23,374 nucleotides of DNA from a virus. The position numbers and the translations under genes were made by a program. Of the stretch, positions 11,152 through 19,736 are shown piece by piece. The stretch spans positions 1 through 23,374 of IMG/VR virus record IMGVR_UViG_3300027782_000374; one strand, written 5' to 3'. The stretch's first letter is position 1, and every line of letters starts with the position of its first letter. The notes beneath the pieces were generated by a model that saw only the letters and a program-made list of their open reading frames with translations, made no database searches and was not told the DNA's origin.

Positions 11152-14100
11152 GTGAAATCAAAATATCAAAGTGGAAAGTCTGTTGCAAAAAATCCAACAG
11201 TTCCAATAAGTGCAGATGACCCAAGAGTTGCTTGGAATAAAATTTCACAAACAAAATCTCGTCAAGGTGCAGAAATTGATATTATTGGTTTTAATGGTAA
11301 GGCTTTAGTTTCTGGAGGAACATCCTCATCTAATGTATCTGGTGTATCTGGAATAAGCCCAGTAACCAAAAGTTCAAATGACACAAACCTAAAAGATGTT
11401 TTACCAGCAGGAGTAACAAACCTTACAGCTGCATGGGACAATGACGATATTGATCTTACATTTGATTTTGATACTACAAACGAACAAAATAGAAGTATTT
11501 ACAAATTTTTAGTAAGGGTAAGAGATAAGACAAACAATAAGTATTATCTACTAAGAGCTGGTTTCGGGTATCAATCAGAATTTTTAAACACAACTTCTTC
11601 TTCACAAACACTAACAATTCTAGATGCTGATTTACAAAGAACTGGAATAGAATTACCATCAAACATTGATCAAGTTGGAATTGCAGCCTGCAGCCTTTAT
11701 CAAACAGGAAATTATGTAAATGCAACTTTAGCTGCATATGTTTCTGCTTTTCCAAAACCTACTTTTACACTTGGAAAAGGTGTAGATTATTATACAGTTA
11801 CAATGGGAACTGAATTAGCAACAGCACTTACAAAAAATTTTTACGGCATAATTATTGAAGAAAAAATAACAACTGAAACAGTAAAATCAAACGTAAGTCT
11901 TACAGATGGATGGACACAGGCACAAGCATTAACCACTAACTCAGTGTCTGTTATATATGTTCCAGATGGTGCACATAGATGGGTAAGAGTTAAGTATGTT
12001 GCAAAATCTGGAGGAGTTTCAATTTATTCTGAAATTGCAGATATTACTCCAGACCCATTTATGCCAGTAAATACAAACCCTCCTACACAGTTTACAAGTG
12101 CATCAATAGCATGGTCTGGAAATGATATACAAGTTAATTTTGCACAGCCAGTAACAAATTTTGGTAACACCGTAAAGGTAAAACTAGTTCCTTATATTGG
12201 GGGAACTGAAAGTAATTCTCTTTATGCATATTACTATCATTTAATTAATGGAGCAGAAACATCATATAAGATTCCATCACTAGATTTATATGGACAATTT
12301 GGAGAATATTATTCAACTTTTAAAGCATACATTACCGTGCTTTCAAACCAGGGAGTTGAAACAGTAGGTGCAACAATTGTTAGCGGACCAATTACAAGAA
12401 CAACAAGCTTAAGCACCCTTGTTCCAAATATAGCAACAACAAATACTATTGATGGATATACAGTACAGTTTAATTTTGGTGCAACTAATATTGTTAATGC
12501 ATATAATGCCAAGGTTGCATCTACTGGAAATATTAGTGGAACTCTTAATATTCAAAATTCTTTTAGTGGTACTCTTATAAATACTGTTTTAACTTTGTCA
12601 AATTCATTAACTCCAGTCATTGATGGAGTTACGCTTAGCATTGGAGACAGAGTTTTACTTAAAGACCAAACTGATTCAAAACAAAATGGTGTTTACGTAT
12701 ACGCACAATTGCATAGTTTTCAGTGCACTGCATCCGCTGATGTTGCTGGTAGTGGTGTATACAATCAAAGTTTAAATCATAGACTTACTGGAAACACTTA
12801 TTATTTTGCTGGAGGAGACTACATTCTTGGGCCAGGACAAGGATATACAGTGGCACAGTTATTTGCAGCTGGTTCTCAAAGAGCTTATTATGGTGGTTCA
12901 TATACAGCGGGTGCATCAGTTTCTGCTTTTATTCGTGCTTCTAATTTTGACTCAATGTCAGAAATTTCAAACTCTACTGTAACTATTGATTCTGGAACAG
13001 CCAATGCTGGAAAAACTTGGTTAAACACTAACTTAGTAACAGATGCTATAGGTACAAACAATATTAGTTTTTCTCAACAAACTTTTGCTCAAACACCAGG
13101 CTCAAGCGGAGCAACACGTGCAGAGGTTTATCAATATTTTCTATATCCAGGATTTACAAATACCGCTTTACCAGATTATATAGACTATACATATGCTTCA
13201 GGTGGTGCTAATGGAACAAATACTTTTGTCGCTAGTGCAGTTTCTCTTCAAGGGGGAGGATACACACTACCATCTGGAAGAACTGTTAATGATTTTAAGG
13301 GCATGGAAATTCAAGGCAATGGAATTCAACCAAACACCTATGTAACAGATATATCTGGATCGGGACCATATACAATTACAATAAGCAATAACATAGATGT
13401 TTCTAAGTATGGACTTGCATCAGGAAACTATCACTCACAAGCTTTGGTATATTCTGGCACTGCAAATGCTAATGTGTTTTCAAACTATTATAATGACTTA
13501 TATGTTGTTGCGGTTTACTATGATAATTACTTTAATCGTTCTTTATCCTCATCAATAAGAACGGTACGTCCAGTTAATCCCGCACTATCTTTAATACAGA
13601 ATGCAGTACAAGTTGGTGGAACAGCAGGAGCAATATATGTAGGATCATCAGCATCAACAGGTGCAAGAATATTGCTTGGTGTTGATAGCTATTATAATAC
13701 AAACAATTCGTTTTCAGGTATTTTTGCTTACGATGGTTCTGCTATCACGGGTACCGCTCCTACAACATCAATAATTTCAAATGCTGGTTCTGGAGGTTAC
13801 ACCTTTAAAACAATTAACGCTAAGATTGCAGACTGGACTATCACACAAAATGGAATAGAAGAACTTAATGGTTCTAATTATGCTGGACTGTCTGGAAGTG
13901 GAACATATTCATTCTGGGCAGGAGCAGATGTAACTAATAATTCAAATGGCCTTGCTAAATTTTCCGTTACTCCCGCAGGTGCAGTAATTGCAAGAAAGAT
14001 TAGTATTCTTGGAGACGGAACAACTTCTGATTTAATTAATGCTGGTAGCGGGGTATTTAAAGTAACAAACACAGGAGCATTAACAGCACAATCAGCAACA

Positions 14101-16509
14101 ATTTCGGGTAGCATAACTGTAAACCAGCAATCATATTTTGATGCAAATGTAAACATAAGAAATAGCTCGTATCTTATATCAACAGGAACTACAGGACAAG
14201 AAAAACTTCGGCTTGGATCTTTAGGTCTTGAAGCAGTTAATTCATCAGGTGCAGCAACCACAAAAATATATTCAAGTCAAGGAACAGTTACCGTAAACGG
14301 AGTATCACAGGTTAGCCCTAGCTTGTGGAGCAAAAAAGCTTTGTTTGGATCTACAGAAGGAAGTGGTTGGCTTATTGAAGACGGAGTTATATCTTCATCT
14401 TTTATTACTTTAGACTCTGCTACCTATGAAATTAAAGTTGTTTCTAAAACATCAAACTCAACAAAAGGAATTTCTTTAACTGCTGGTTATGACACAGATT
14501 ATGCCATTAAAGCAGGAAATCTATCTAGTCCTAATTTTTGGGTTAAACATGACGGATCTTTGTTTGCTTCAAGTGCAGATATATTAGGAACAATAAAAGC
14601 AAGGCTTGGTGGTTTTGGATATTATCCTCCCAACAGTAGTAACATTAATGTTGGTTGGGAAATTAATGAAAAAGGAATTATAGCCATTAATGATACACTA
14701 AATGGCACATACGGAACAATTAAACTTGGTAATTACTCAATTAAAAGCAACAGCTCATTTGATTTTGGAATTTATGACGAATCTCAGGGAAGTTCTGGAG
14801 ATACAATCTTTCAGACAAGCACTGTAGCAAATACAGAAACAGGAGCAGAAGCAAAAAGATTATTTCTTGGAGATTTATCAAGGCATGTTGAGGTTGCAAA
14901 GTCAGCTCCAGTATCTGGAGTAGGATCTATATCTGTAATGCCATCATCAAGTGCAACTGAAATAACTGCCTATAGATCTGGCGGACTTAGAAACATGTTT
15001 ACCGTTGCTTCTGGTCAAATTAGTGTAGATGGTAATGGTTCAGTTATTGAATATCCAAGTGCTTTTAAAGGTGACATGCTTATTGTTTATGATCCAAATG
15101 ATCCAAATAGTCGTTCTGATAATCCTTGGAGAAAAATAACTGCGGTATATTTAAATACAAAAGGTGTTTCTGGAGTACTATATTACTTTGCAAATTATTC
15201 AATTTATCAGGGTAGCTGTAATACAGCTCCTGGAGCAGGATCAAATTTTACAACATACAACATTGACCGTTCTATTATTTCAGGCACAAATAGAAGTGCG
15301 GTCTATACAGAAGCTTCTGGAGGTGGCTATACATACTATGCTGTTTATAGTACTCTATCGGCTCAAGATGCAGTGAATGCACTAAAGGAACATGCTGCTG
15401 CAAATTCTAATGGATGTGCTCAAATACCAGAATTTACCGATGGCCCGTTTATTTTTATGGGTAGTACAGGTGCAAGCATAGCGTTTACTGGTTCTAATAC
15501 TCAGTCATGGAGAGTTTATAGAACTCAGGCAGGACTTAACGGTGTTACCGTGGGTTCTGGAAATGCAAATATTGTAGACATTACTGATACAGGATTATCT
15601 CCAAATACAATATACTCTTACGGAATAACTATATACTCTGGACTAAATCAAACTGGCATACAGACTTCTTTAGCATATGACAGAACCACATCTGGAGCAG
15701 GTACTCCAACACCAACTCCAACACCTCCAGGTGGAAATATTACATATTATATTGGAACATCAAGATGTAATGGCCCAAGTGGAACTTATATTAGCCAACC
15801 CTCTGTAACTGGACCATTTACTGCAGCTTCTATGCCAACAGATACAGATTCTTATTCAAGCGGAACCGTAACCGTATACAAGTATAGATCAACTGCAGCA
15901 GCAGCACAAACAGCAGCAGAACAAAATGCTTGTTCATTTGGTTACACTCCAACTCCTACTCCAACCCCAACACCTACTCCAACACCTACTCCAACACCTA
16001 CTCCAACACCTACTCCAACACCTACTCCAACACCTACTCCAACGCCTACACCAACTCCTACACCTGCTCCAACAACATATTATTATGCTACATCAAATTG
16101 TGATTTCCAACTTGAAGAGTATGCTCAAAATCCTACATGCTCTACTACGACTACACTTCCTGCAGGATATACTGCAAATACTTTAAAAACAAGTATTGGG
16201 GCTAGAACAGCTAGATATGAATACTACGGAACAGTAGATTGTGCAACTTCTCTAGCACAAGTACAACAGGGTGCTTGTGCTCCAGTATCTCCTACACCAG
16301 CACCTACACCAGCACCTACACCAGCACCTACACCAGCACCTACACCAGCACCTACACCTACACCAACACCAACACCAACACCATTTACGTGTCCTTCAGT
16401 ATTTTATTCAAGAAGATGCTTGCCTACAGAAGGTGCTGCTGGATGCTGTATACCTGATGCCGCACAATATGGATGTGGTGGCTCGGGATCACTTACAACA
16501 TCCTGCTAA
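11152..16509 (+). CDS. Giant modular tail fibre / receptor-binding protein
   Basis: A 1785-residue protein, very rich in Ser, Thr, Asn, Gly and Tyr, following the hub and lectin-like genes. Immunoglobulin/fibronectin-like strands occur near residues 85-170 and 310-400. Residues about 481-517 (VIDGVTLSIGDRVLLKDQTD, then QNGVYVY) match a box common in phage fibres. Residues about 888-995 carry the 'IADWTI...G.FKVTNTGALTAQSATISG' pattern typical of trimeric fibre shafts. From about 1340 the C-terminus changes character: three related modules with a conserved cysteine pair (C1356/C1422, C1539/C1594, C1650/C1709), a fibronectin-like domain (about 1428-1518) and a last 40-residue domain with six cysteines. 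They are joined by Thr-Pro and Pro-Ala-Pro-Thr linkers. The start is GTG with AAGGGG five bases upstream. It is the likely host-recognition protein. The downstream operon may modify it (inference). Confidence 0.85.
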   Translation: MKSKYQSGKSVAKNPTVPISADDPRVAWNKISQTKSRQGAEIDIIGFNGKALVSGGTSSSNVSGVSGISPVTKSSNDTNLKDVLPAGVTNLTAAWDNDDIDLTFDFDTTNEQNRSIYKFLVRVRDKTNNKYYLLRAGFGYQSEFLNTTSSSQTLTILDADLQRTGIELPSNIDQVGIAACSLYQTGNYVNATLAAYVSAFPKPTFTLGKGVDYYTVTMGTELATALTKNFYGIIIEEKITTETVKSNVSLTDGWTQAQALTTNSVSVIYVPDGAHRWVRVKYVAKSGGVSIYSEIADITPDPFMPVNTNPPTQFTSASIAWSGNDIQVNFAQPVTNFGNTVKVKLVPYIGGTESNSLYAYYYHLINGAETSYKIPSLDLYGQFGEYYSTFKAYITVLSNQGVETVGATIVSGPITRTTSLSTLVPNIATTNTIDGYTVQFNFGATNIVNAYNAKVASTGNISGTLNIQNSFSGTLINTVLTLSNSLTPVIDGVTLSIGDRVLLKDQTDSKQNGVYVYAQLHSFQCTASADVAGSGVYNQSLNHRLTGNTYYFAGGDYILGPGQGYTVAQLFAAGSQRAYYGGSYTAGASVSAFIRASNFDSMSEISNSTVTIDSGTANAGKTWLNTNLVTDAIGTNNISFSQQTFAQTPGSSGATRAEVYQYFLYPGFTNTALPDYIDYTYASGGANGTNTFVASAVSLQGGGYTLPSGRTVNDFKGMEIQGNGIQPNTYVTDISGSGPYTITISNNIDVSKYGLASGNYHSQALVYSGTANANVFSNYYNDLYVVAVYYDNYFNRSLSSSIRTVRPVNPALSLIQNAVQVGGTAGAIYVGSSASTGARILLGVDSYYNTNNSFSGIFAYDGSAITGTAPTTSIISNAGSGGYTFKTINAKIADWTITQNGIEELNGSNYAGLSGSGTYSFWAGADVTNNSNGLAKFSVTPAGAVIARKISILGDGTTSDLINAGSGVFKVTNTGALTAQSATISGSITVNQQSYFDANVNIRNSSYLISTGTTGQEKLRLGSLGLEAVNSSGAATTKIYSSQGTVTVNGVSQVSPSLWSKKALFGSTEGSGWLIEDGVISSSFITLDSATYEIKVVSKTSNSTKGISLTAGYDTDYAIKAGNLSSPNFWVKHDGSLFASSADILGTIKARLGGFGYYPPNSSNINVGWEINEKGIIAINDTLNGTYGTIKLGNYSIKSNSSFDFGIYDESQGSSGDTIFQTSTVANTETGAEAKRLFLGDLSRHVEVAKSAPVSGVGSISVMPSSSATEITAYRSGGLRNMFTVASGQISVDGNGSVIEYPSAFKGDMLIVYDPNDPNSRSDNPWRKITAVYLNTKGVSGVLYYFANYSIYQGSCNTAPGAGSNFTTYNIDRSIISGTNRSAVYTEASGGGYTYYAVYSTLSAQDAVNALKEHAAANSNGCAQIPEFTDGPFIFMGSTGASIAFTGSNTQSWRVYRTQAGLNGVTVGSGNANIVDITDTGLSPNTIYSYGITIYSGLNQTGIQTSLAYDRTTSGAGTPTPTPTPPGGNITYYIGTSRCNGPSGTYISQPSVTGPFTAASMPTDTDSYSSGTVTVYKYRSTAAAAQTAAEQNACSFGYTPTPTPTPTPTPTPTPTPTPTPTPTPTPTPTPTPTPTPTPAPTTYYYATSNCDFQLEEYAQNPTCSTTTTLPAGYTANTLKTSIGARTARYEYYGTVDCATSLAQVQQGACAPVSPTPAPTPAPTPAPTPAPTPAPTPTPTPTPTPFTCPSVFYSRRCLPTEGAAGCCIPDAAQYGCGGSGSLTTSC
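15173..16281 (+). repeat. Three copies of a Cys-containing module in the fibre C-terminus
   Basis: Protein-level repeat within the fibre. Each copy opens with a Tyr-Tyr strand leading to a cysteine: YYFANYSIYQGSC near residue 1344, TYYIGTSRC near 1531 and TYYYATSNC near 1642. Each closes with a Tyr-rich strand and an Ala-rich helix ending in a second cysteine: YTYYAVYST...NGC, VYKYRST...QNAC and YEYYGTV...QGAC. The cysteines are 66, 55 and 59 residues apart. Copy 3 has two additional cysteines. Copies 2 and 3 sit between PT-rich linkers, copy 1 before a fibronectin-like domain. I do not recognise the module. Binding of host surface glycans would fit its position. Confidence 0.6.
15945..16074 (+). 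repeat. 12-bp tandem repeat encoding a Thr-Pro linker
   Basis: Six perfect consecutive copies of CCAACACCTACT run from 15967 to 16038, flanked by degenerate versions on both sides. They encode roughly 20 Thr-Pro dipeptides (fibre residues about 1598-1641). The unit is four codons, so gain or loss of copies by replication slippage would change linker length without breaking the frame. Confidence 0.95.
16291..16383 (+). repeat. 12-bp tandem repeat encoding a Pro-Ala-Pro-Thr linker
   Basis: Five perfect copies of CCTACACCAGCA (16291-16350) followed by a degenerate CCTACA/CCAACA tail. They encode five PTPA units and then TP repeats (fibre residues about 1714-1744), joining the third Cys module to the six-cysteine C-terminal domain. 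Like the upstream array it is in frame with slippage-type length change, but its consensus differs, so it is not a simple copy of that array. Confidence 0.93.
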
Positions 16510-16512
16510 AAT

Positions 16513-16542
16513 TTGACATAAACAGAAACGGAATGGTATACT
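16513..16542 (+). promoter_or_regulatory. Sigma70-type promoter of the modification operon, probably leaderless
   Basis: TTGACA (16513-16518), an 18-base spacer, and TATACT (16537-16542) with a TGG extension: a near-consensus vegetative promoter in the 39-base gap after the fibre gene. Only six bases separate the -10 box from the ATG at 16549, so transcription should start at or within a base or two of that ATG. No Shine-Dalgarno sequence precedes the ATG. Together these point to a leaderless first gene. The promoter would drive the five closely packed genes to 19736. Confidence 0.8.
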
Positions 16543-16548
16543 AAAAAG

Positions 16549-16998
16549 ATGATTACAGACAATGATATATATTTTTTCTGGGATAAGTATCCTGGAAGAC
16601 AACAAATGGCTCTTGCTTTTGGTGTGGATGGTAAGGTTGTTGCTGCCTTTGCCACTTATGTAGATTTTTATGATTTATTGCTTTCTGCTGATGAAATCGT
16701 TGCAACAAATGATGACAGCTCTATTGTTAATTTTATTAAAAACGGAGAAGTAATTGAAACATTACAAACTTCATCTTTTTTAGGAAGCCTTCTATGTAGC
16801 AAACCAGATCTATTAGAAATGTACCGCCACCCAAACCCAGAACAATTAGCAAAGAATGCTGGCGTAGGACCAGGCCATCTATATGATGAAAACGGTGAGT
16901 TTAGGCTTCCTTATGAGGGATGGGACACTGAAATGGTTGACGGTATGTTTAACTCTGACCGAGAGTATCATTTGATAGAATTTTATACAGGAGAATAA
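16549..16998 (+). CDS. Uncharacterised protein, first gene of the modification operon
   Basis: A 149-residue acidic soluble protein that I do not recognise. The first half (about residues 8-75) alternates strands and helices with 'FGVDGKVVAAFATYVDFYDL' and 'LSADEIVATND'. The second half is less regular, with 'KPDLLEMYRHPNPEQLAK' and a Tyr/Trp/Glu-rich end 'REYHLIEFYTGE'. There is one cysteine and no membrane segment, signal peptide or clear catalytic motif. The ATG sits six bases downstream of a TATACT -10 box and has no ribosome binding site, suggesting leaderless translation. It ends one base before the next gene and so is very probably co-transcribed with the dioxygenase, radical SAM and glycosyltransferase genes. 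A role linked to them is plausible but unproven. Confidence 0.75.
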   Translation: MITDNDIYFFWDKYPGRQQMALAFGVDGKVVAAFATYVDFYDLLLSADEIVATNDDSSIVNFIKNGEVIETLQTSSFLGSLLCSKPDLLEMYRHPNPEQLAKNAGVGPGHLYDENGEFRLPYEGWDTEMVDGMFNSDREYHLIEFYTGE

Positions 16999-16999
16999 C

Positions 17000-17287
17000 A
17001 TGTCTGAAAAAACAGCATTTGAAAAATGGAAAGAAAAAAACTATGAAAATACACAAAAAGAAAAAGAAGAAATAGCTAAAAAAATAATGGATAAGACAGT
17101 AAAGCCTTGGGATCTATTAAATCCAAATGCTCCAAGAAGCACAGATTTATTAGCAGAAGAAAGGTTTAATATTTGTTTGTCTTGCCCAGAAATAATAAAA
17201 TTTACAAAACAATGTAGGAAGTGTGGTTGTTTTATGGCAGCAAAAACAAAACTAGAGGCAGCAACTTGCCCATTAGGAAAGTGGTAA
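17000..17287 (+). CDS. Small multi-cysteine zinc-binding protein, DUF6171-like
   Basis: A 95-residue protein with a Lys/Glu-rich helical N-terminal half and a C-terminal cysteine cluster: C59 and C62 (ICLSCPEI), C72, C75 and C77 (CRKCGC), and C90 (TCPLGKW, the last residues). The signature R-F-x2-C-x2-C ... C-x2-C-G-C ... K ... C-P-x-G-K-W agrees with my recollection of the DUF6171 family of small phage and bacterial proteins of unknown function. Zinc binding is the natural reading of the cysteines; iron-sulfur binding is an alternative, considering the radical SAM gene nearby. AGGAG at 16989-16993 sets the ATG. It lies one base after the preceding gene and three bases before the dioxygenase gene, in the same operon. 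Confidence 0.75.
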   Translation: MSEKTAFEKWKEKNYENTQKEKEEIAKKIMDKTVKPWDLLNPNAPRSTDLLAEERFNICLSCPEIIKFTKQCRKCGCFMAAKTKLEAATCPLGKW

Positions 17288-17290
17288 AAA

Positions 17291-17890
17291 ATGATAAAAG
17301 AAGAAATAGCACCAGGAATAGTTGTATATCATAAAGTAATTCCTGAAAGTGAAAATCTATATAAAGATATTGAAGAAGGAATAATTTCTGCGGGATTAAG
17401 ATGGACAGAAGCCTCAGTAAAAGAATCTTCTGATCCAATGGTAAACACTAAAACAAGAGATACAAGCACCTTTGGTATTCCATATAAGGGTTATGTTGAA
17501 GATAAAATACCAGAAAATATGTCTGAAGAATTTTTTGCTAGCATCAATAATTTGTTTTTTAAAAACTTTGACCCCATAGAAAAAGACTATATGTCAACTT
17601 ATGGAATATTTTTAGATTGGCATGACACTTATGGAATATTAAAGTATGGTGCTGGTCAGTTCTTTAGTAATCATATAGATGATCATCCATCATATCACAG
17701 GAGAGTGTCTACTGTTTATTATTTAAATGATAATTACACGGGTGGAGAAATTAACTTCCCTCGTTTTAATATAACATTTAAACCAAAAGCTAATCAGATG
17801 ATAGTTTTTCCATCTACATATGTTTATAATCACTCAGTGTCTCCAGTTATTGAGGGAGAAAGGTATGCTGTTGTTAGTTGGCTTAAGTGA
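17291..17890 (+). CDS. 2OG-Fe(II) dioxygenase, prolyl-4-hydroxylase-like
   Basis: A 199-residue single-domain enzyme with the complete active-site set of the 2-oxoglutarate/Fe(II) oxygenase superfamily. The iron triad is H128, D130 (NHIDDH) and H181 (YNHSVSPV), and R191 (EGERYAVVSW) is placed to bind the 2-oxoglutarate carboxylate. Between them 'RRVSTVYYLND', 'TGGEINFPRF' and 'KPKANQMIVFPS' follow the prolyl-4-hydroxylase fold order. The expected reaction is hydroxylation of a protein side chain, proline being the best guess, using O2 and 2-oxoglutarate and releasing succinate and CO2. AGGAAAG at 17275-17281 serves as ribosome binding site. Its stop overlaps the radical SAM start (GTGA). Phages carry many such genes with unknown substrates, so the family is sure but the substrate is not. 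The Thr-Pro and PAPT linkers of the fibre encoded just upstream are attractive candidates. Confidence 0.9.
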   Translation: MIKEEIAPGIVVYHKVIPESENLYKDIEEGIISAGLRWTEASVKESSDPMVNTKTRDTSTFGIPYKGYVEDKIPENMSEEFFASINNLFFKNFDPIEKDYMSTYGIFLDWHDTYGILKYGAGQFFSNHIDDHPSYHRRVSTVYYLNDNYTGGEINFPRFNITFKPKANQMIVFPSTYVYNHSVSPVIEGERYAVVSWLK

Positions 17891-18822
17891 TTAAGTTAGT
17901 TCAGTTAGATCCTAATGGACTATGTAATCTTGGATGTTGGTTTTGTCCTGTAGCATATGAAGAAAATCCATTAATTGGAAGAAACACAATGTCTATTGAC
18001 ACTATTAGTTCTATCATAAAACAGCTTAAAGATGGAATTGGAGACTTTGTAGATCCTTCGTTTTCTTTTATTTATACCGCACATTATAATGAGGTATTGC
18101 TATATAAACACTTTAAGGAAATGCTTGACTTATTTAGAGAGCAAAAAATAAGGACCATGGTTCTTACAAACGGATCCCCACTAACAAAAGACAAAATGGA
18201 CATAATAAAAGAATACAAAGATGTAGTTGATTTAATTCATTTTAATACACCTTCTGCTGACGCAAACACCTGGGCAAAAATGACGGGGAAAAGTCCAAGT
18301 ATGCACCAAAGAGTAATGGATAACATTAGATATGCTATAGATAACTTTCCTAATCAAAAAATTTCAATGCAGGTTAATGGAATTAACGAGACCTCTCTTG
18401 GATACATGGAGTTGCTAGAAAATTCTCCAGAAATAGACTTAAATGATAATACTGGAGATACTGCTACTGCTGTTAAACAAATGAAAGAAAAATTTCCCGA
18501 AATTAATATTTCTACAAACACTGCATTAGTAGATAGAGCGGGATATCTTGATAAGCGTAAAATCATGAAAAATAAGATAAACATTAAAAGCAAAGTTGTT
18601 GGCTGCAATAATATGGGGGGAAGACCTGACACATGGATGCACATAAATGCAAATGGTTCTGTCTTTCTTTGTTGCAATGATTATGATTTTGAAACGGTAT
18701 TTGGCAATATCAATGAAACACCAATTAAATATATATGGGAAAGCCAAGAAAGACAAGACATGATCGCTAATTCTTATGAAAGCTTTTGTACAACATGCAT
18801 TCACGCAATCTGGCAGGAATAA
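17887..18822 (+). CDS. Radical SAM enzyme with SPASM-like C-terminus
   Basis: A 311-residue enzyme. C13, C17 and C20 in 'GLCNLGCWFCP' form the CX3CX2C motif that holds the [4Fe-4S] cluster cleaving S-adenosylmethionine to the 5'-deoxyadenosyl radical. The middle is an alternating helix/strand barrel (for example KIRTMVLTNGSPL). At the C-terminus C240, C262/C263 (SVFLCCNDYDF), C301 and C304 (FCTTC), with the intervening 'FGNINETPIKYIWES', follow the pattern of a SPASM/twitch auxiliary iron-sulfur domain, usual in enzymes modifying peptides or carbohydrates. The GTG start is chosen because it overlaps the dioxygenase stop (GTGA) and lies just before the first conserved strand; no good ribosome binding site is visible, so translation is probably coupled. 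The substrate cannot be told. Tight linkage to hydroxylase and glycosyltransferase suggests a shared target or donor sugar. Confidence 0.88.
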   Translation: MIKLVQLDPNGLCNLGCWFCPVAYEENPLIGRNTMSIDTISSIIKQLKDGIGDFVDPSFSFIYTAHYNEVLLYKHFKEMLDLFREQKIRTMVLTNGSPLTKDKMDIIKEYKDVVDLIHFNTPSADANTWAKMTGKSPSMHQRVMDNIRYAIDNFPNQKISMQVNGINETSLGYMELLENSPEIDLNDNTGDTATAVKQMKEKFPEINISTNTALVDRAGYLDKRKIMKNKINIKSKVVGCNNMGGRPDTWMHINANGSVFLCCNDYDFETVFGNINETPIKYIWESQERQDMIANSYESFCTTCIHAIWQE

Positions 18823-19736
18823 TGAAAAAAAGTATCTTTATTCAAATAACTTCTTATCATGACTATGAACTTGAAAAGACTATTAAGGATGCTATAAATA
18901 AATCTTCAGGAGAAACTGAATTAGTCTTTGGTGTACACTCAATATTTTATCAAGACAATTTATGGATAGAGCCAGTAAAACAAATACACAATGTTAAATT
19001 AATTGAAAGCAAAGCACCAGATAATATCGGCATGGGTCTTGGAAGATCTATTTCCCACAGCTTATACTCTGGAGAAGATTATTACTTTCAGATAGATGCT
19101 CATAGTAGATTTGATTTAAATTGGGATATTTTTTTAATAAATGAAATAAAAGCACATAAAGCTAATGGGTTTGAAAAACCACTTATAACTCAATATCCAA
19201 AACCATTTTGGTATGAAGGTGATATAGAAAAAACAAGAGATAACGAAGAAGTTGTTACCCAGTTTTACTGGAAATATAGGGACAGATTTAAAAATAATAG
19301 AACGCCAATGCAAGGTACTACATTAAATCCAAAGGGAAATAAATTTTCTATTTCTGTTTCCGGCGGATCTATATTTACAGAAGGAGAATTTTTAAAGCCA
19401 AATAATTTAATATTTGCTGACGGAGAAGAAATATTTATAGCAGCAAGAGCATACACTCACGGATATGACATGTTTGTGCCTAGCAAAATGTTTATGTTTC
19501 ACCTTTACTATAGAGATGAAGGAAAAAATAAAAGAAGAACTGTTTATTCGGATTGGCCACAACAAACAGATTATTTAGGAAAAATATCCTCTGATGAAAT
19601 AAAACTTGTTTTAACTGGAGATGGACTTGTTGGAGATGGTAGGCTTGGAAACAGTAGATATTTATGGGAATATGGAAAATTTGCTGGATTGGACTTTGTT
19701 AATGGAGAAATTATTAATAACTACTATGAGTTTTAA
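18822..19736 (+). CDS. Skp1-type GlcNAc-transferase-like glycosyltransferase (PF11397/GT60-like)
   Basis: A 304-residue glycosyltransferase. The opening 'KKSIFIQITSYHDYELEKTI', the segment 'GEDYYFQIDAHSRF' with the metal-binding D92-x-H94, 'KPLITQYPKPF', 'SVSGGSIFTEGEF', 'FADGEEIFIAARAYTHGYD' (E202/E203, H213) and 'MFHLYYR' (H227) match, in order, the family of the Skp1 GlcNAc-transferase (GlcNAc, PF11397; CAZy GT60). The best studied members add alpha-GlcNAc to a hydroxyproline made by a prolyl 4-hydroxylase. An ATG 36 bases upstream is in frame, but ATG at 18822 is preferred: it forms a TAATG overlap with the radical SAM stop, has GGCAGGA just before it, and places the family's first strand at the N-terminus. 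No signal peptide or membrane segment is visible, so it should act in the cytoplasm of the infected cell. Donor and acceptor are inferred, not shown. Confidence 0.85.
   Translation: MKKSIFIQITSYHDYELEKTIKDAINKSSGETELVFGVHSIFYQDNLWIEPVKQIHNVKLIESKAPDNIGMGLGRSISHSLYSGEDYYFQIDAHSRFDLNWDIFLINEIKAHKANGFEKPLITQYPKPFWYEGDIEKTRDNEEVVTQFYWKYRDRFKNNRTPMQGTTLNPKGNKFSISVSGGSIFTEGEFLKPNNLIFADGEEIFIAARAYTHGYDMFVPSKMFMFHLYYRDEGKNKRRTVYSDWPQQTDYLGKISSDEIKLVLTGDGLVGDGRLGNSRYLWEYGKFAGLDFVNGEIINNYYEF

Follow-up and report, generated by a model that had tools for sequence, protein, structure and literature searches.

What might a phage gain from encoding a prolyl-hydroxylase-like oxygenase and a glycosyltransferase (GT) behind its own tail fiber gene? 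This question is raised by a freshwater phage catalogued as IMG/VR virus record IMGVR_UViG_3300027782_000374, of which we analyzed the whole stretch of 23,374 nucleotides (the window). Behind the fiber gene, tightly spaced or overlapping genes follow on one strand, encoding a 149-aa open reading frame (ORF), a DUF6171 protein, a 2-oxoglutarate/iron(II) (2OG-Fe(II)) oxygenase, a radical SAM/SPASM enzyme and a PF11397/GT60 transferase. We consider it reasonably probable that these genes constitute a self-modification cassette for the disordered stalks of the fiber. The elements central to this reading are:

11152..16509, + strand: tail fiber / minor tail protein, 1785 aa, the proposed substrate
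15703..15729, + strand: linker 1, TPTPTPTPP (5 Pro, 4 Thr)
15946..16077, + strand: linker 2, (TP)20-APTT (21 Pro, 22 Thr)
16291..16383, + strand: linker 3, PTPAPT repeats (16 Pro, 10 Thr)
17291..17890, + strand: 2OG-Fe(II) oxygenase of prolyl-hydroxylase type, predicted linker-proline hydroxylase (PF13640, E=1.4e-18)
18822..19736, + strand: GT60/PF11397 glycosyltransferase, proposed to add N-acetylhexosamine (HexNAc) to linker Thr and/or hydroxyproline (PF11397, E=1.7e-32)

A sequence-only reading had placed the fiber, oxygenase and transferase here, and its coordinates and motifs held on re-checking. The long Thr-Pro and Pro-Ala-Pro-Thr linkers it described were likewise confirmed, and we locate three of them, separating small domains in the C-terminal part of the fiber. 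Together they hold 42 Pro and 36 Thr, and linker 2 is written in mixed codons (CCA/CCT and ACT/ACA). In plant hydroxyproline-rich glycoproteins (HRGPs), Ala-Pro, Ser-Pro and Thr-Pro repeats define the modules of hydroxylation and O-glycosylation (PMC7769824); the linkers of the window and of its relatives contain such dipeptide or Pro-block repeats. The operon described earlier stands insofar as both enzyme genes do lie behind the fiber. The pair is not adjacent, however, as the radical SAM/SPASM gene (17887-18822) lies between them, and both this gene and the Cys-rich DUF6171 gene had been overlooked.

The oxygenase carries the HxD...H triad and basic 2OG-binding residue expected of a prolyl 4-hydroxylase (P4H). 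Among 39 diverse relatives, the iron triad is kept at H128 (39/39), D130 (37/39, the rest Glu) and H181 (39/39), and the 2OG-binding position R191 is Arg in 34 and Lys in 5. In a model built from 39 sequences (pLDDT 96.5), the fold resembles, among the matches listed, prolyl hydroxylases more closely than other 2OG enzymes: all 50 PDB matches listed by Foldseek are prolyl hydroxylases (TMq 0.61-0.75), including a Pseudomonas P4H with EF-Tu, an algal P4H alone and with (Ser-Pro)5, Dictyostelium PHD, human PHD2 and a chlorella virus P4H. The closest structure among them is 4iw3, the Pseudomonas P4H bound to EF-Tu, and sequence matches comprise the P4H 3itq and a PKHD enzyme. Conserved residues and modeled fold both support the prolyl-4-hydroxylase-like assignment made earlier. 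A defense role of the cassette was considered and rejected, PADLOC matching only a generic 2OG model and, weakly, viperin.

The transferase scores 113.7 bits against the PF11397 profile (cut-off 21), above the gathering score, and its motif residues are conserved (D92 of the DxH motif in 34/35 sequences, H94 in 35/35, and also E202/E203 and H227), which upholds its earlier placement in the Skp1 N-acetylglucosamine (GlcNAc) transferase family. Its model, built from 35 sequences (pLDDT 94.6), has a GT-A fold with the metal-binding DxD/DxH motif, and its nearest folds are the mucin-type polypeptide N-acetylgalactosaminyltransferases (ppGalNAc-Ts); no PDB chain matching it by sequence was found. 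Translation likely starts at ATG 18822, where TAATG overlaps the stop of the radical SAM gene, and not at TTG 18786. GT60 contains both the Skp1 hydroxyproline transferase (Gnt1) and Thr-specific Trypanosoma cruzi mucin transferases (PMC6939170, PMC9472816), so the PF11397 match does not decide the acceptor.

Further evidence on substrate comes from related phages. Each related-locus scan comprised at most the best 80 loci, with ORFs called mechanically, so that divergent oxygenases may go unrecognised, locus L651 being one case. Linkers were scored per 24 residues as aliphatic Pro-rich (at least 9 Pro and at most 2 Phe/Tyr) or poly-Thr (at least 13 Thr), thresholds fixed after the first locus sets and before the DUF6171-baited set. 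The DUF6171 gene is the constant cassette marker across relatives, and the pooled set comprised 109 cassettes with DUF6171 below 90% identity, none picked for its repeat. Aliphatic Pro-rich linkers accompany all 28 cassettes with both oxygenase and GT60 and 31 of the 48 with the oxygenase only; with neither enzyme, both Pro-rich and poly-Thr linkers number 0/14. Among the 19 cassettes with GT60 only, 11 have poly-Thr and 2 Pro-rich linkers, and poly-Thr occurs elsewhere in 0/90. Fisher tests on these cassettes gave 9e-13 and 2e-10, with ancestry ignored. At the level of sequence, the oxygenase goes with proline and GT60 with threonine. The sequence-only reading had proposed asking whether enzymes track Pro-rich fibers; in phages chosen regardless of linkers, oxygenase presence does so. 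The refuting pattern it named, a gene pair equally common without Pro-rich structural proteins, was not seen among the 28 pair cassettes.

Individual baits gave a similar picture. In the DUF6171-baited set, Pro linkers accompany 21/35 cassettes with the oxygenase versus 1/15 without (p=5e-4); the split by enzyme content is 9/9 Pro for GT60 with oxygenase, 5/7 poly-Thr for GT60 alone and 0/8 for neither. L651, one of two exceptions among the GT60-alone cassettes, is the contig of L220, which carries a recognised second-type oxygenase. With a neutral tail-gene bait, loci with the oxygenase had a Pro linker in 6 cases versus none in 1, and loci without it in 2 versus 23 (p=2e-4). With the oxygenase as bait, a Pro-rich fiber stands just upstream at nearly every locus with enough sequence, and close oxygenase relatives have an aliphatic Pro-rich ORF upstream in 51/55 non-redundant usable loci, a minority of which entered via the GT and Pro-Thr (PT) repeat baits. 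Four loci are exceptional: L204, L370 with a mixed PVAPPFFP, and L290 and L335, in which Pro is weaker or the sequence collagen-like. Across these close relatives the repeat units turn over (PT, APTP, PTPPA, TPVAP, APIPAP, PVTPP, PPPIIAT), and Pro-richness stays.

Several results weigh against a cassette dedicated to the linkers. Much of the co-occurrence is shared ancestry: the DUF6171 tree holds only 3-4 independent pairs, about 2.5 running the same way and 0 opposite, short of significance, and the tail-gene bait yields 4.4 concordant tree pairs with 0 opposed, numbers insufficient for significance. Among the oxygenase-only cassettes, 17/48 are not aliphatic Pro-rich (10 of aromatic PFFP type, 7 neither). 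Across IMG/VR, PT repeats are rarely near the enzymes (9/62 with the oxygenase, 8/62 with GT60), and GT60 neighbors 1/46 poly-Thr repeats. PT and poly-Thr linkers thus do not need the enzymes, since most such repeats have no oxygenase or GT60 nearby, and the 9/62 oxygenase and 1/46 GT60 neighbors rule out repeats alone as a predictor of enzymes. Finally, an adjacent fiber and cassette could move as one block. Hitchhiking of this kind, with fiber ends and cassette swapped together and the oxygenase acting on something else, such as EF-Tu, draws on that adjacency, on tree-based pairs too few for significance and on the top Foldseek match to the EF-Tu-bound enzyme 4iw3. We nevertheless judge it unlikely: repeat units vary widely among close oxygenase relatives with Pro-richness kept, DUF6171 cassettes without either enzyme lack Pro-rich linkers (0/14), and GT60-only cassettes have another linker type.

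If the cassette does act on the linkers, the next question is whether its two reactions form a series. With the GT as bait (65 loci), close relatives at 68-81% identity mostly keep the order DUF6171-oxygenase-radical SAM-GT beside a Pro-rich ORF, and remoter relatives are mostly DUF6171-GT without an oxygenase, many with poly-Thr linkers such as TTTTTTTAAPTTTTTT. A test of oxygenase against Pro linkers on the GT tree was set aside: the traits are distributed by clade, and other oxygenases occur in a distant GT clade. The two-step chemistry proposed earlier for the fiber survives in its prolyl-hydroxylase fold and its link to the linkers, and is not supported as an obligate Skp1-type series, GT60 often occurring without a recognised oxygenase. 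In such a series the oxygenase would make hydroxyproline and GT60 would add GlcNAc to that hydroxyproline only, a scheme in keeping with the prolyl-hydroxylase fold, the PF11397 membership, the GT60 affiliation of Skp1 Gnt1 (PMC6939170) and the Pro-rich linkers beside 28/28 paired cassettes. Strict dependence of GT60 on a prolyl hydroxylase is nevertheless contradicted by 19 non-redundant GT60 cassettes without a recognised oxygenase, 11 of them poly-Thr; moreover, the nearest GT folds are Ser/Thr transferases, and the oxygenase is often found with other sugar genes in place of GT60. Threonine content points the same way, with 2-13 Thr per 24 linker residues beside GT60 plus oxygenase versus 0-12 beside the oxygenase without GT60 (p=0.02); no GT60-plus-oxygenase cassette has a Thr-free linker, and some oxygenase-only cassettes do. 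We therefore regard a strictly serial pathway as rather unlikely.

Most simply, the genes would form a modular cassette for linker decoration, in which hydroxylation and glycosylation may run in parallel instead of in series and both enzymes, judging from sequence and models, probably act on the linker. First, the 2OG-Fe(II) enzyme would hydroxylate prolines of the Thr-Pro/Pro-Ala linkers, as its fold and co-occurrence suggest. Second, GT60 would place HexNAc, probably GlcNAc, on the same linkers. Thr is the likelier acceptor than hydroxyproline, because GT60 without the oxygenase is usually found with poly-Thr, paired GT60 never with a Thr-free linker, the nearest folds are Ser/Thr transferases and Thr-specific GT60 enzymes are known. 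Third, and speculatively, the radical SAM enzyme would further alter the sugar or peptide. Such a stalk would be a glycoprotein comparable to plant HRGPs or mucins, stiff, resistant to proteases or surface-masking, and would keep receptor-binding domains off the tail.

The same genes might instead modify the host, with GT, radical SAM enzyme and oxygenase altering host glycans, for example in superinfection exclusion, and leaving the fiber untouched. Precedents exist: clusters that combine phage GTs with 2OG and cupin enzymes have been interpreted as capsule modification systems (PMC7824862), and GTs near fibers as O-chain modifiers (PMC7029224). This alternative appears quite improbable here: it does not predict that linker type follows enzyme content, the predicted folds are those of peptide-acting enzymes, and Streptomyces, the host of the nearest known phages, is a Gram-positive that lacks lipopolysaccharide.

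The sugar genes of the cassette are exchangeable. Some cassettes keep the oxygenase with GT61 in place of GT60; in others, GDP-mannose-epimerase-like and fucosyltransferase-like genes replace GT60, the latter a tentative label based on a motif, with no Pfam match; further cassettes gain a second hydroxylase-like or cupin/JmjC gene. It is conceivable, though we hold this only tentatively, that a large group of freshwater tailed phages encodes a prolyl hydroxylase and interchangeable glycosyltransferases (GT60, GT61, GDP-sugar genes) with which it builds hydroxyproline-rich or mucin-like fibers, that linkers co-evolve with the enzymes carried, and that GT60 caps hydroxyproline in the present phage.

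Other loci extend these observations. Oxygenase cassettes in L097, L134, L161, L271 and others carry GDP-mannose epimerase/dehydratase-like and WNGRFGNRMHQ genes, which suggests a phage-made GDP-sugar for the fiber. In other phages found by repeat-baited scanning (L130, L132), the trio of oxygenase, radical SAM and GT60 genes recurs next to a PT ORF. In L335, L336 and L290, oxygenase relatives adjoin GPxGPQGPxG sequences resembling collagen, which may point to a substrate of collagen type. A second freshwater phage group (L403, L407, L354 and similar) has up to ~10 consecutive 2OG-Fe(II)-like genes (in L403, upstream of 10001), arrays immediately preceded by a small ORF that carries PPFFPFFPPFFP repeats. 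Pure aromatic PFFPPFFP linkers have no oxygenase in the tail-gene set, yet precede oxygenase arrays in another phage group; as the two groups disagree, we claim no rule for them. Among isolated phages, GT60 occurs in three jumbo phages only, with no fiber annotated nearby, and cyanophage S-MbCM7 has oxygenases after gp12, the examined part of that fiber not being Pro-rich. In bacteria, SAR86 marine genomes (L422, L426, L443 and others) have a conserved divergent 2OG oxygenase/GT60 gene pair, and in Betaproteobacteria (L429, L432) a GT60 gene adjoins one whose protein contains PTPEPTPE or SPAPTDTPAPT repeats.

The remaining features of the cassette region are:

16513..16542, + strand: promoter-like TTGACA-18-TATACT with extended -10, just past the fiber stop (11/12 match, weak evidence)
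16549..16998, + strand: 149-aa ORF of no family; relatives recur before DUF6171
17000..17287, + strand: DUF6171/phrog_13558, small Cys-rich protein (PF19668, E=3.5e-6; phrog_13558, 9.4e-15)
17887..18822, + strand: radical SAM/SPASM enzyme (PF04055, 1.6e-13; PF13186, 2.6e-12; best PDB match BtrN)

The DUF6171 protein likely binds metal or an Fe-S cluster. The radical SAM/SPASM gene is mostly limited to the closest GT clade, and its product possibly acts on a sugar or peptide. The promoter-like site was rejected as a conserved element, most relatives being without it at the same place. Across the window the order runs tape measure, minor tail, 170 aa, fiber, cassette, helix-turn-helix, DnaB and primase, which resembles the Stanwilliamsviridae (Streptomyces phages); the fiber takes the position of their 2021-aa minor tail protein, and the nearest known relatives of the tail and DnaB proteins belong to this family (~20-38% identity). 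The host is likely actinobacterial.

How does such a cassette compare with known systems? The P4H of chlorella virus PBCV-1 (vCPH, 5C5T; fold match TM 0.62) is likewise a virus-encoded prolyl hydroxylase, but that of a eukaryotic virus, and we know of no linked fiber or GT60 cassette for it. The Skp1/GT60 Gnt1 pathway of Dictyostelium and Toxoplasma similarly combines a prolyl-hydroxylase-type 2OG enzyme with a GT60 transferase (PMC6939170), whereas Skp1 is a cytosolic protein with one target proline and the phage has long repetitive fiber linkers, an additional radical SAM gene and a GT60 enzyme of a kind that also occurs without the hydroxylase. T. cruzi TcOGNT, a GT60 enzyme acting on mucin Thr (PMC9472816), recalls the poly-Thr linkers of oxygenase-less relatives; unlike the phage enzyme, it is a Golgi enzyme for glycosylphosphatidylinositol-anchored mucins and is not partnered by a prolyl hydroxylase. 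Plant and algal HRGPs (arabinogalactan proteins, extensins) with their P4Hs share the Ala-Pro/Ser-Pro/Thr-Pro repeats (PMC7769824), and the algal P4H-(Ser-Pro)5 complex is among the top fold matches; these are, however, secretory-pathway proteins carrying arabinogalactan or arabinose from other transferase families. In mycobacteriophages, phage GTs are proposed to modify virion proteins (PMC11256854), with a capsid target instead of Pro-rich fiber linkers and no prolyl hydroxylation. A study of prophage collagens holds that bacteria and viruses lack prolyl-hydroxylating enzymes (PMC3368898). In the open-access full-text literature, with subscription papers and preprints outside the scope, we found no described phage that hydroxylates virion prolines, in line with the sequence-only reading, which knew of no described phage system of this type.

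The chemistry of hydroxylation and glycosylation is itself already known from eukaryotes. If the proposed function is correct, phages would independently use the strategy of plant walls and mucins for stiff, protected fibers, and virion glycosylation would become predictable from metagenomes through linker sequence and enzyme content. Such phages would also be a source of GT60 and prolyl-hydroxylase enzymes, both small and soluble, for the production of hydroxylated or glycosylated repeat proteins.

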